Assembly (NCBI GenBank): GCA_003233055.1
Contig: QIKP01000048.1
Location: forward strand, 1-64,000
Reading direction: 5' to 3'
DNA: 64,000 bases
Source of the DNA: Planctomycetaceae bacterium
GTDB lineage: Bacteria; Planctomycetota; Planctomycetia; Pirellulales; Lacipirellulaceae
Shown one piece after another: positions 58,080 to 63,471 of this stretch; the first letter of the stretch is position 1, and each line of letters opens with the position of its first letter. The notes under the pieces were generated by a model. It did not search any database. It saw nothing but the letters and a program-made list of their open reading frames with translations, and was not told where the DNA came from. The position numbers and the translations under genes were made by a program.

Positions 58080-60194
58080 ATGGCTTCGTCTGACGCTCCC
58101 ACTTCGCATTGGATCCATCGTGTGCAAGACCTGGTCTTGCCGCTAGCCTTCATCGCTAGCGTGCTGGTCATCATGGTTCCGTTGCCGCCGATGCTGATGG
58201 ACGTCCTCCTGGCAGGCAACATCACCATCTCGGTGATCGTCCTGCTCACGACGATCTACGTTCGCTCACCGCTCGAGTTCAGCATCTTCCCGTCTCTGCT
58301 CTTGGCAACCACCCTTGCTAGGCTGGTCCTCAACGTCGCGACGACGCGGCTGATCCTTACTCGCGCGGGGACCCATAAGCTCGAAGCAGCTGGTGGGGTG
58401 ATTACCGCATTTTCCGATTTTGTTGCCGGCGATGGCAAGATCGTTGTCGGGCTCATCATCTTCATCATCATCGTGGTGATCCAATTTTTGGTGATTACCA
58501 AAGGGGCCACACGGATAAGCGAAGTGGCCGCCAGGTTTGCCTTGGACGGGATGCCCGGCAAGCAGATGGCGATCGACGCCGACTTGAACGCTGGCATCAT
58601 CGACGAACACCAAGCGCAGAGTCGCCGAGAAGAAATCACCCAACAGGCGGACTTCTACGGGGCCATGGATGGTGCCAGTAAGTTCGTCCGAGGCGACGCG
58701 ATCGCCGGCATCGTTATCACGGTGATCAACATTGTCGGTGGGCTCATCATCGGCATGGCGGAACTCGGCCTATCGCTCACCGAGGCGGGAAGCCTCTTCA
58801 CCCGACTGACGATCGGCGATGGGCTGGTCAGCCAAGTCCCCGCCTTTCTCATTTCGCTGGCCGCCGGATTGCTCGTTACTCGCAGCACGCAAAAGTCCAA
58901 CATGTCGCGGGATTTCGTCGAGCAACTCTTTGCCCGACCGCAAGCGCTGATGATCACCGGCGGCTTCCTCGCCACGCTCCTCTTCACCGGCTTGCCGCGC
59001 GTTCCACTCCTCGCCATCGGAACCGCCTGCCTGGGACTCTCTCGTGTGATGGCAAAGCGTGACCAGAGCCGGGAATCGGAACAATCGGCCACCGAACAGC
59101 AAGCCACGGCGCCGAAAGAAGAGCGGGTCGAGGACTTTCTGGTGGTCGATCCGATGGAGATCGAACTCGGCGTCGGGCTGATCCGTCTCGCCGATCCGAA
59201 TCGGGGTGGCGATTTGCTCGATCGGGTACAGCGAGTGCGTCACAACATCGCCGCCGAGATCGGGCTCATCATGCCCAAAGTCCGAATTCGCGATAACATG
59301 CGTCTGGAACAAAACTGCTACCGCATCAAGATCGCCGACATGCCGATCGCCCAGGAGGAAATCGATCCAGGGTTACTGCTCGCGATCGATTCGGGAATGA
59401 CCACGGGGGAAATTGATGGCATCGCGACCCAAGACCCCGCCTTTGGCACCGACGCGAAATGGATTCGACCGGGATTGCAAGATCAGGCGGAGCTTTACGG
59501 CTATACGGTGGTCGAACCAGGTGCGGTGATGGCGACGCACCTCACCGAAATTTGCCGCCGCCACGCCGACGAAATTCTCAATCGCGACGCGGCCAAGCAT
59601 CTCATCGATGAGATCAAGAACACGTCGCCCGCCGTGGTCGACGAACTCATCCCCTCCGTGATGACCCTTGCCGAAGTACAAGGCATCCTACAGTCGCTCT
59701 TGCGCGAGCAGGTATCGATCCGCCAATTGGGGCTCATCCTGGAGACACTCGGAGACTACGCACCACGGTCGAAGGATCCCGTGCTCCTGACCGAGTACGT
59801 CCGCCACCGACTAGCTCGTCAAATATGCACCCGGTACCGCGACAAGGAAAACCAGCTCCATATCATCGCGATCGATCCGGCCGTTGAAGATCGTATCCGG
59901 GCTGGTTCGGAGCATACGGAGCGGGGGCTTTTCTTGCGGATGTCGCCCCAGGCGGTCGAGTCGACCTGTGAGCGAATTCGCCAAGAAATCGACAAGCTCA
60001 TCACACAAAATTTCACACCGATTGTTCTGGTGAGCCCTCAAATCCGAGCGGCGGTCAGGCAACTTACCGAGAACCATCTGCCTCAACTCGTCGTTCTCAG
60101 CTTCAACGAAGTCACTCGAGACACCAAAGTCGTTACCCATGGATTGGTCACCGAACGTCTCGAAGCCCAAGCCGATAGCCGAAAGCAACCGTGA
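58080..60194 (+). CDS. flhA: Flagellar export gate protein FlhA
   Basis: A 704-aa protein with about eight N-terminal membrane helices and a cytoplasmic substrate-docking domain. The FHIPEP signature region is seen around FSIFPSLLLATTLARLVLNV and ATTRLIL, and the conserved FVRGDAIAGIVITVINIVGG follows. The ATG at 58080 is chosen since the 89 residues possible before it overlap the divergent mdh gene. Its stop overlaps the flhF start. Confidence 0.96.
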   Translation: MASSDAPTSHWIHRVQDLVLPLAFIASVLVIMVPLPPMLMDVLLAGNITISVIVLLTTIYVRSPLEFSIFPSLLLATTLARLVLNVATTRLILTRAGTHKLEAAGGVITAFSDFVAGDGKIVVGLIIFIIIVVIQFLVITKGATRISEVAARFALDGMPGKQMAIDADLNAGIIDEHQAQSRREEITQQADFYGAMDGASKFVRGDAIAGIVITVINIVGGLIIGMAELGLSLTEAGSLFTRLTIGDGLVSQVPAFLISLAAGLLVTRSTQKSNMSRDFVEQLFARPQALMITGGFLATLLFTGLPRVPLLAIGTACLGLSRVMAKRDQSRESEQSATEQQATAPKEERVEDFLVVDPMEIELGVGLIRLADPNRGGDLLDRVQRVRHNIAAEIGLIMPKVRIRDNMRLEQNCYRIKIADMPIAQEEIDPGLLLAIDSGMTTGEIDGIATQDPAFGTDAKWIRPGLQDQAELYGYTVVEPGAVMATHLTEICRRHADEILNRDAAKHLIDEIKNTSPAVVDELIPSVMTLAEVQGILQSLLREQVSIRQLGLILETLGDYAPRSKDPVLLTEYVRHRLARQICTRYRDKENQLHIIAIDPAVEDRIRAGSEHTERGLFLRMSPQAVESTCERIRQEIDKLITQNFTPIVLVSPQIRAAVRQLTENHLPQLVVLSFNEVTRDTKVVTHGLVTERLEAQADSRKQP

Positions 60195-61342
60195 TGGAAA
60201 TCAAAACATTTCGCGCTAAGTCGATGCAGCAGGCCCTTGCGCTCGTTCGCGAAGAGCTAGGGCCAGAGGCCTCTGTCTTGCACACGCGGGAACTGCCTGC
60301 CGGATGGATTGGCCGATGGGTCAGGGGCCGCACTATCGAAGTGGTCGCTTCTACCACGGTGAACGTTCCGAGTCGACTCGACCTCCCAACGCAACCATCG
60401 CCTCCACTCATTCCGCCAGCACACGAAGAGTGCGACTACCGAGCCAAGTACCGGGCCGACTTGGGACAGGAACTCTCTGGTCAACTTGGCAGCCTCCACG
60501 CAATGGTCGAACAGCTTTGCGGAAATGGCAAGCAGCAAGAGAAGAGAGAGGTACCGAATGGCGCACTCTTCGAGGCATTTACCGACTTGATCGAAGCGGA
60601 CGTCGACGAGGCGACCGCTCGTGAGTTGATCGACCTGCTGCAAAACGAAATTTCCGGCGACGGTTTCCCGGACGTTGGTTCCCAACTCTTTCAGTTGATC
60701 CAGGGAGAGTTCCAGACAACAGGGCCGATCCAAATCACGCCCGGCAGACGGCGACTGGTTGCACTGATCGGGCCGACCGGGGTTGGCAAGACGACCACCA
60801 TTGCCAAACTGGCCGCCAATTATCGCCTGTTGGAAAAAAAACGTGTCGGACTGATCACGGTCGACACCTACCGCGTCGCGGCCGTCGAACAGTTGCGAAC
60901 CTATGCCGACATCATCGACCTGCCGATGGAAGTGGTCGCGACGCCTCGCGAGATGCGAGAGGCGGTTGCAAGAATGGAAGACCTTGACCTGGTGCTCCTC
61001 GACACGGCCGGACGGAGTCCCAAAGACGAGACACAGATTCAGCAACTAAAGTCGATGCTCGGCGAAGCCCAGCCCGACGAAGTCCATCTCGTCTTGTCGA
61101 GTACCAGCGCACCCAAAAGCCTTCTTTCCACCACCAAGCGTTTTGCAGAAGTCGGGGCGACCTCGATTCTGCTTACCAAGCTGGACGAAGCGATCAGCCT
61201 GGGGCACCTTCTCTTCCTTCTACGAGGTTGTTCCCTTCCGGTGAGCTATCTGACCAATGGACAGAACGTGCCTGACGATATCGAAGTGGCCGACGTAGGA
61301 AGACTCACGGCGGCAATTCTCGGAGTTTCCGCGACGGCGTAA
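60194..61342 (+). CDS. flhF: Flagellar SRP-type GTPase FlhF
   Basis: A 382-aa GTPase of the SRP family that sets flagellar number and place. N-terminal FlhF-specific segment (MEIKTFRAKSMQQALALVRE, ELGPEASVLHTRE), then the NG domain: P-loop with K199 (GPTGVGKTTTIAKLAANY), DTYRVAAVEQL, DTAGRSP and LTKLDEA. The ATG at 60194 shares its A with the flhA stop TGA; a GTG three bases earlier is also possible. The protein's partner is normally FlhG, encoded next. Confidence 0.95.
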   Translation: MEIKTFRAKSMQQALALVREELGPEASVLHTRELPAGWIGRWVRGRTIEVVASTTVNVPSRLDLPTQPSPPLIPPAHEECDYRAKYRADLGQELSGQLGSLHAMVEQLCGNGKQQEKREVPNGALFEAFTDLIEADVDEATARELIDLLQNEISGDGFPDVGSQLFQLIQGEFQTTGPIQITPGRRRLVALIGPTGVGKTTTIAKLAANYRLLEKKRVGLITVDTYRVAAVEQLRTYADIIDLPMEVVATPREMREAVARMEDLDLVLLDTAGRSPKDETQIQQLKSMLGEAQPDEVHLVLSSTSAPKSLLSTTKRFAEVGATSILLTKLDEAISLGHLLFLLRGCSLPVSYLTNGQNVPDDIEVADVGRLTAAILGVSATA

Positions 61343-61440: not shown

Positions 61441-62064
61441 ATGGACCAACAAGCGACTCGTCTTCGACAATTGGTTCGCCAAGTTCGCCAGGCGGCCATC
61501 GCCTCCACCGGACCTCCTCTCTTCGCCTTGGTCGCCTCGAACAAGTCGATCGACCTGAGTGCGATCCACCAATCGATTCGCCGCACGGCGACGGCCCAAG
61601 GAATTCGAGTGGGAGGGGCGATCGACCGACTTGAAGAGGGCGACCGGCAATTAGAAATCGACTGGCAATTCGTCGACGCTGGCGTTGGCTACTCGGAAGA
61701 CCAACGGAGCACGTGGGAGCAGGCGAGCGCGGTATTGGTGGTCACCACAACAGAAGATCAAGCGATCCTTGCCGCGTACACCACGCTCAAGCTCGCCTCG
61801 CAGCAGACGCCGCTCCCGGTCATTGAGTTCCTCCTACAAGACAACGCGATCGGACAAGAGGGGGCAATCAGCGAGCCCACTCTCCAAGCTTACGACCGGC
61901 TTACGAACACCTGCGAACGCTTCCTCGGATGTCGTCCGGCCGCGTTAACGGTCGTTTCGCCACGAGATAGCCGGCACGGATTTCAAGAACTCGTCGACCG
62001 ATGGATCGCGATAGCACCGGCGGGAGAAACCTTGTCCAGACCTCTTGCGGAGAAAGCCGACTAG
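61441..62064 (+). CDS. FlhG-like protein without Walker A motif
   Basis: A 207-aa protein in the place of flhG, between flhF and the sigma gene. The N-terminus MDQQATRLRQLVRQ is close to the DQAxxLR activator helix through which FlhG stimulates the FlhF GTPase. The middle (FVDAGVGYSE then SAVLVVTTTEDQAILAAYTT) matches the MinD-type D-x-G-x-G and TTPE...AY blocks. The N-terminal GKGGxGK Walker A of FlhG/MinD is absent (only VASNKSIDLSAIH), and the protein is about 80 residues shorter. So it probably activates FlhF but cannot bind or hydrolyse ATP in the usual way. Confidence 0.72.
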   Translation: MDQQATRLRQLVRQVRQAAIASTGPPLFALVASNKSIDLSAIHQSIRRTATAQGIRVGGAIDRLEEGDRQLEIDWQFVDAGVGYSEDQRSTWEQASAVLVVTTTEDQAILAAYTTLKLASQQTPLPVIEFLLQDNAIGQEGAISEPTLQAYDRLTNTCERFLGCRPAALTVVSPRDSRHGFQELVDRWIAIAPAGETLSRPLAEKAD

Positions 62065-62317: not shown

Positions 62318-62554
62318 ATGGGTCGATCTTACGCGGGCGTCCTCGGCTATCTGGCCGCGACGCTCACTCTGGTCCGCGGAGCGGTTACCGGCAGTGGGCT
62401 CGAGGGGACCTTGGTCATGGCGATTGCCACGATGGCCTGCTTTGCATCGATTGGTTTCCTTATCGGAACGATCGCGCAGACGACGGTCGACCAAGCTGTA
62501 CGAGAACAGCTTGAGTCGCAGCTCGCCGCGAGATCCGCTCCGATGGAATCGTAG
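62318..62554 (+). CDS. Small membrane protein between flhG-like and sigma gene
   Basis: A 78-aa protein with an AAGGAGG ribosome binding site just before the ATG. Residues about 6-50 form two closely spaced hydrophobic segments (GVLGYLAATLTLVRGAV and ATMACFASIGFLIGTIAQ). The C-terminus is polar. No family recognised. Placed in the flhA-flhF-flhG-sigma run, so probably linked to flagellar assembly or to the following sigma factor. Confidence 0.65.
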   Translation: MGRSYAGVLGYLAATLTLVRGAVTGSGLEGTLVMAIATMACFASIGFLIGTIAQTTVDQAVREQLESQLAARSAPMES

Positions 62555-62676: not shown

Positions 62677-63471
62677 ATGGCCGTAATGACTGCTGCTTCT
62701 AAGGAAGAAATCGCCGAGGTCTGGGTGCAGTTTAAGGAGGACATTACCAACCGCAGTTTGCGGAACCGGTTAGTCGAAAACTATCTGCCGCTGGTTAAGT
62801 ACAACGGCGAACGCATCTGGGCACGTCTTCCAGATGGTGTCGACTTGGATGATCTGATCTCCGCAGGCGTTTTTGGCCTTATGGACGCGATCAAAGCCTT
62901 CGACATGAGCCGCGGGGTGAAGTTCGAGACCTACTGCGTCCCTCGAATTCGAGGAGCCATGCTGGACGAACTTCGCACGATGGACTGGGTTCCCCGGTTG
63001 GTGCGTAGCAAAGCGAGCAAGCTGAACGAGGCAATTCGCCAACTCGAAACCCGCCTCGGCCGTTCTCCAACGGAAGTAGAGCTCTCGGAACAGATGGGTA
63101 TCAGCGTTAAAGAACTGGAGAAACATATCTCCGACGCCAATGCGGTCGGCTTGGTGAGCCTCAACAAAAAATGGTACGAGACCGATAGCTACAAGGACGT
63201 TCGCGAAATCGACGTCCTCGAAGACAAGAAAGGCGAGGACCCGACCAAGCGCATCCAGAAGTCGGACCTCATGCGTCTCGTCACCAAGGGACTCAACCGC
63301 AACGAGCGATTGATCATCATCCTCTACTACTACGAAGAGCTAACGATGAAGGAGATTGGTGCAACGCTCGACCTCTCGGAAAGCCGGGTAAGCCAAATGC
63401 ATAGTGCGATTGTCAATCGCTTGCAAAGCCAGCTCGGCCGCCGTCGGCCTGAATTTGGGGCGACTGCCTAA
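62677..63471 (+). CDS. fliA: Flagellar-type sigma factor (WhiG/FliA)
   Basis: A 264-aa sigma-70 family group 3 protein. Region 2 shows NRLVENYLPLVKYNGERIWA and DLDDLISAGVFGLMDAIKAF; then KFETYCVPRIRGAMLDELR; region 3 with RSPTEVELSEQMGIS; region 4 with LYYYEELTMKEIGATLDLSE. It has CACGGAGGATTCG before the ATG. Position after flhF-flhG is that of SigD/FliA in Bacillus-type clusters. It probably drives late flagellar genes, none of which lies here. Confidence 0.93.
   Translation: MAVMTAASKEEIAEVWVQFKEDITNRSLRNRLVENYLPLVKYNGERIWARLPDGVDLDDLISAGVFGLMDAIKAFDMSRGVKFETYCVPRIRGAMLDELRTMDWVPRLVRSKASKLNEAIRQLETRLGRSPTEVELSEQMGISVKELEKHISDANAVGLVSLNKKWYETDSYKDVREIDVLEDKKGEDPTKRIQKSDLMRLVTKGLNRNERLIIILYYYEELTMKEIGATLDLSESRVSQMHSAIVNRLQSQLGRRRPEFGATA

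Follow-up and report, generated by a model that had tools for sequence, protein, structure and literature searches.

A gene of the planctomycete genus Aeoliella (Lacipirellulaceae, Pirellulales) encodes a short, P-loop-less FlhG of 207 aa that keeps the N-terminal FlhF-activating helix. The gene lies at 61441..62064 on the + strand of the window, the whole 64,000-nucleotide stretch of DNA that was analyzed. It encodes a real FlhG homologue, and its position, sequence and predicted fold identify it as the flhG orthologue. From the sequence we infer that ATP binding was lost in this protein, and that its activator half would work like that of FlhG. In the literature FlhG is a MinD-type ATPase, and its ATP cycle is given a central part in setting the number and position of flagella. 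The bearers of the short form are pear-shaped, budding bacteria; relatives of the protein use the helix to switch off their partner enzyme.

A short FlhG in the classical flhG position

The reading frame is intact, starts with ATG and has a GGAGG ribosome-binding site immediately 5' of it; its codon-position GC resembles that of flhF. Upstream lie the genes for the export-gate protein FlhA (58107..60194, +; TIGR01398, 9.5e-247) and for a complete FlhF with intact GTPase motifs GPTGVGKTTT, DTAGR and TKLDE (60194..61342, +; TIGR03499, 1.2e-61). Downstream, behind a small membrane ORF, follows the gene for a FliA/WhiG-type flagellar sigma factor (62677..63471, +; TIGR02479, 1.3e-80). This is the classical flhG position, and the adjacency of flhF and flhG is identical across all four Aeoliella genomes. 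The ORF between flhG and the sigma gene (62318-62554) encodes a membrane-protein-like product of 78 aa, and ORFs resembling it were found at the corresponding place in loci L108 and L237. A frameshift or assembly error as the cause of the short form was ruled out by the agreement of four species, and horizontal replacement by another ParA-type protein was ruled out by sequence and position, which both fit the FlhG of the order.

Scans of the short FlhG alone against Pfam and NCBIfam matched no family. Sequence searches of the PDB gave FlhG at a nonsignificant E-value of 0.22 for the single protein, and for a profile of the genus FleN (0.007) and FlhG (0.017), with a chance match ranked above them (0.0012). 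These searches were insufficient, and profile comparison and a fold search were therefore required. Within Pirellulales, the whole-genome relatives of the short protein are full-length FlhG proteins, and when the order-wide family profile was compared with solved structures, FleN (2.1e-42) and FlhG (4.9e-38) ranked first. When a profile of the short form was compared by hhalign with canonical FlhG from other groups of planctomycetes, the second half of the domain aligned at 96.6% probability. The AlphaFold2 model (pLDDT 77.5, pTM 0.74, built on three sequences) retrieved Geobacillus FlhG (4RZ2/4RZ3) at ranks 1-3 in a Foldseek search of the PDB. VIA-align of the model with FlhG gave a Z of 16.3, and since general GTPases scored only slightly lower, such a match would by itself be no proof of FlhG. 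A MinD-like alpha/beta fold of the short FlhG is seen both in the predicted model and in the profile alignment. The first-pass annotation had called the protein an FlhG homologue, to be checked by HMM comparison and structure prediction, and both checks agree with it: hhalign leads to canonical FlhG, and a MinD/FlhG fold with FlhG as the top match is predicted.

The same annotation had named a complete FlhG elsewhere in the genome, combined with no MinD fold here, as what would speak against it. Neither was found. Each of the four Aeoliella species, among them A. straminimaris, carries exactly one short flhG (193-207 aa). A search of the Aeoliella genomes with the canonical FlhG profile, which reaches 1.2e-112 in a control genome, recovered no second FlhG, the genome of the window being about 90% complete and that of a congener (G003) a single contig; a complete second copy was thereby ruled out. 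The best matches were CpaE/TadZ-like proteins of ~420-440 aa at about 1e-22 (1.1e-14 in G002). This identity was checked by domain content for the copy in genome G000, where the other matches examined were ParA, Mrp, Ffh and kinase-like proteins. Every genome checked has flagellin and FliM, which shows that the flagellar system is not on its way out; FlhF is present in Aeoliella as well. The N-terminal FliM peptide LSQxEVExLL is conserved in all four species. A passage on A. mucimassa makes no mention of flagella.

The FlhF-activating helix is the best-kept part of the short FlhG

The N-terminal FlhF-activating helix, MDQQATRLRQLVRQVRQAAIASTGPP, comprises residues 1-26 (61441..61518, +) and is marked by invariant residues, a low pN and a modelled helix. 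In the window's protein the helix sequence is MDQQATRLRQLV, and the helix spans residues 2-23 in the AlphaFold2 model. Q4, A5, L8, R9, L11 and V12 are invariant in all four Aeoliella species. The Asp of DQA varies over the four (D, D, S and Q), and the short FlhG thus carries an N-terminal helix of the form [D/S/Q]QAxxLR, in which Q-A-x-x-L-R is invariant. Within Aeoliella, residues 1-26 have an identity of 0.74 and a pN of 0.21 (FlhF pN 0.19-0.25); the helix is the best-kept part of the short FlhG, at a constraint of about the FlhF level.

QAxxLR arose near the N-terminus in 192 of 200,000 shuffles of the protein, so the motif by itself would be suggestive, and it is homology that makes it firm. 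QQAxxLR was seen also in another genus whose loop looks intact. The resemblance of MDQQATRLRQL to the DQAxxLR activator of FlhG, on which the first-pass annotation had drawn, is thus confirmed by an invariant QAxxLR in four species together with homology.

The ATP site has been eroded

The former strand-loop-helix of the P-loop (residues 27-60; 61519..61620, +) has lost its glycines and both lysines. A search of the short FlhG for GxxGxGK[ST] found none, nor is there a deviant Walker A of the form KGGxGK[ST], and the Walker A' region is gone. The base-binding Asn is present in none of the four Aeoliella species and the Walker B Asp in one, that of the window. Since synonymous sites are saturated, dN/dS was not used and pN was compared by region instead. 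Residues 27-60 have an identity of 0.17, and with a pN of 0.63 against a pS of 0.76 this stretch is nearly free to drift; in control genera, whose FlhG is full-length, and in a second genus with an eroded loop, g7, the identity of this region is 0.61-0.96. A short variable linker follows (residues 61-74; 61621..61662, +), where about 60 switch-region residues of full-length relatives are missing; profile positions 60-121 are absent, and the pLDDT of the model is low at residues 62-70. The retained half of the MinD-like core (residues 75-165; 61663..61935, +), which hhalign joins to canonical FlhG, is intermediate in constraint (pN 0.41 in Aeoliella), and the C-terminal tail (196-207) is predicted at low confidence only. 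Over its whole length flhG changes at roughly twice the rate of flhF, with identities among Aeoliella species of 32-46% for FlhG and 66-71% for FlhF.

The earlier observation that the P-loop is missing and the protein short therefore holds, with no GxxGxGK[ST] in 207 aa. The MinD-like blocks had also been reported as kept, and this was true in part: 'VVTTTEDQAILAAY' is conserved as a pattern across the family, whereas DAGVG (Walker B) is a feature of the window's species only, the other three having no Asp. Judged by its residues, the short FlhG is as a family member an FlhG orthologue that lacks the features that define the ATPase.

We tallied loop residues in 163 FlhG sequences, 48 from outside Pirellulales (from its class or from elsewhere in the phylum) and 115 from inside (73 from other families, 36 from other genera of the window's family, four from Aeoliella and two from g7). 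The P-loop lysine is found in 47 of the 48 sequences outside the order (one has Arg) and in 0/115 inside. The signature lysine goes from 48/48 outside to 48/73 in other families of the order, 11/36 in other genera of the window's family, and none in Aeoliella and g7. The last loop glycine is kept much longer (48/48, 72/73 and 36/36) and is gone in Aeoliella (0/4) and g7 (0/2), where the base-binding Asn, present in 48/48 outside, is also gone (0/4 and 0/2). The helix is kept throughout the order, except in the mirror cases described below and in rows ending at contig ends. We conclude that the loss of the ATP site in Aeoliella is the last stage of an erosion that runs through the order and started when the P-loop lysine was lost. 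The first-pass annotation had described an ATP switch lost in this gene; the ATP site is indeed gone, but not in a single gene-specific event. TadZ of Eubacterium rectale has ATPase activity despite lacking both lysines (PMC10482377). Because lysine loss need not abolish ATP binding, we claim ATP-site loss for the eroded forms only.

In a tree of FlhF, Aeoliella and g7 are placed apart, and g7 groups with genera g3 and g9. One loss shared by Aeoliella and g7 was rejected, as a single clade had a p-AU of 0.02 on this tree, which had been seen before the test. There is thus moderate evidence that the whole loop was eroded on at least two separate occasions. The glycine loop was also lost in one species of another family ('AESSANGEVASLAL' in L018, genome G046), where the middle segment is still there. 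A 245-aa FlhG from genome G049 (L174) keeps KGGVGTST, but much of its middle segment is gone.

FlhF GTPase and FlhG helix vanished together in two lineages

In two genomes from two other families of the order, a single ORF fuses the FlhF N-terminal domain to the FlhG core (G048, L235:4379-5494, TIGR03499 positions 1-50, 1.9e-11; G085, L236:4972-5913, TIGR03499 positions 1-52, 9e-10). The fusion ORF lies between flhA and the sigma gene and has no FlhG helix. The search for an FlhF GTPase domain in the rest of these two genomes found none and gave only weaker matches, as expected for Ffh and FtsY. This is the mirror event of that in Aeoliella, the FlhF GTPase and the FlhG helix having vanished together. 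Two relatives of G085 (G053 and G076; L253 and L254) have only ORFs of ~95-107 aa for the FlhF N-terminal domain, and no FlhG was found in either. In a genome of genus g14 (G016), FlhF and FlhG were both not found despite the presence of flagellin and FliM, which may reflect an assembly gap. In Shewanella, FlhF binds FliG through its first 60 residues, and the binding of FliM to FlhG does not depend on nucleotide (PMC11236974). By analogy with this binding, and as a speculation, the fusions may be direct bridges from FliG to FliM.

Proposed role of the short FlhG

In canonical FlhG, a monomer-dimer cycle driven by ATP is coupled to the activation of FlhF by the helix (PMC12826062; PMC12327844), in which the Gln of DQAxxLR has a co-catalytic role (PMC12826062). 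For FlrA the ATP dimer of FlhG is required, whereas FliM does not need nucleotide (PMC11236974). We consider it probable that the short FlhG is an FlhG stripped of its ATP switch, likely monomeric, which would still activate FlhF. An ATP-free FlhF activator is the simplest account because the helix is best preserved and the partner FlhF is intact, though cycling should fail. Binding no ATP, the protein would form no ATP-sandwich dimer and would not cycle on and off the membrane, but would stay a soluble monomer. Its helix with the catalytic Gln would insert into the FlhF homodimer and stimulate GTP hydrolysis like canonical FlhG. In the least certain step, the residual core may be an adaptor that carries the helix to the growing C-ring, as suggested by the nucleotide-independent binding of FliM to FlhG in Shewanella (PMC11236974). 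Assembly of the C-ring, and not an ATP cycle, would then set the time of activation. The retained FliM N-terminal peptide is compatible with the adaptor role and no proof of it. Against an ATP-free activator stands the replacement of the Asp of DQA by Gln or Ser in two of the four species. Further, an ATP-free FlhG is unexpected, since a Walker A mutation of FlhG in Vibrio abolishes function in vivo (PMC7226244).

The roughly twofold rate of flhG over flhF could signal weakening function, and the gene could be heading for loss after failure of the ATP switch, with little function left. Such decay would suit the fast evolution (FlhG 32-46% versus FlhF 66-71% identity) and a genome of another genus (G031; L108, 1604-2216) in which flhF is present and no flhG separates it from the sigma gene. 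Yet in four diverged species, at saturated synonymous sites, the open frame, the start and the helix have all been kept, and the constraint on the helix (pN 0.21 against pS 0.76, with 0.41 in the core) already weakens this reading, which we regard as unlikely.

There is a slim chance that nucleotide is still bound through noncanonical residues, as in E. rectale TadZ, an ATPase without both lysines (PMC10482377). This would suit the full-length KGGVG[TA]T FlhG of the order well, but the short form also lacks the glycines, the Walker A' region and the base Asn, and its loop stretch is unconserved among the four Aeoliella species. We find it quite improbable, too, that the protein is a FliM/C-ring adaptor whose helix now serves a partner other than FlhF. 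The constraint left on the core (pN 0.41) and the kept FliM peptide would agree with such a role; however, an intact FlhF is encoded next door, QAxxLR is a FlhF-specific signature, and the helix vanishes wherever the FlhF GTPase is lost.

Comparison with known systems

With FlhG/FleN/YlxH (Geobacillus 4RZ2/4RZ3, Pseudomonas FleN 5J1J), its best fold match, the short FlhG shares the position behind flhF, an N-terminal DQAxxLR-type helix and the strand and helix order of the retained core. Unlike them, it has no Walker A, Walker A' region or base Asn, no C-terminal membrane helix was recognized in it, and it is ~80-90 residues shorter than its full-length relatives. The ParA/MinD-like TadZ/CpaE of the Tad pilus has no P-loop lysine, like all examined FlhG of the order (GGVG[TA]T), but its glycine loop is retained and its N-terminal domain is receiver-like, and the genome of the window has a separate CpaE/TadZ-like gene. 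MinD shares the fold of the deviant Walker A superfamily; it has no FlhF-activating helix and cycles on the membrane in an ATP-dependent manner, of which the short FlhG should be unable. SRP RNA, the activator of Ffh-FtsY, is a GTPase activator without a nucleotide switch of its own, as we propose for the short FlhG; being RNA and not protein, it is an analogy of role only.

Whether the ATP switch and the FlhF-activating helix are separable has usually been probed with mutants, and our literature search found no paper on planctomycete FlhG in this regard. We propose, at about even odds, that Pirellulales split the FlhF/FlhG switch into two modules, one a GTPase with a helix free of the ATP switch (Aeoliella and the second genus), the other a GTPase-free, FliG-binding FlhF N-terminal domain with the FlhG core, and that FlhG would here activate the GTPase without ATP, at a time set by assembly of the C-ring. 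In natural lineages the ATP switch and the helix appear to have come apart in both directions, and since Aeoliella has cultured members (Aeoliella mucimassa and A. straminimaris), their separability is directly testable.
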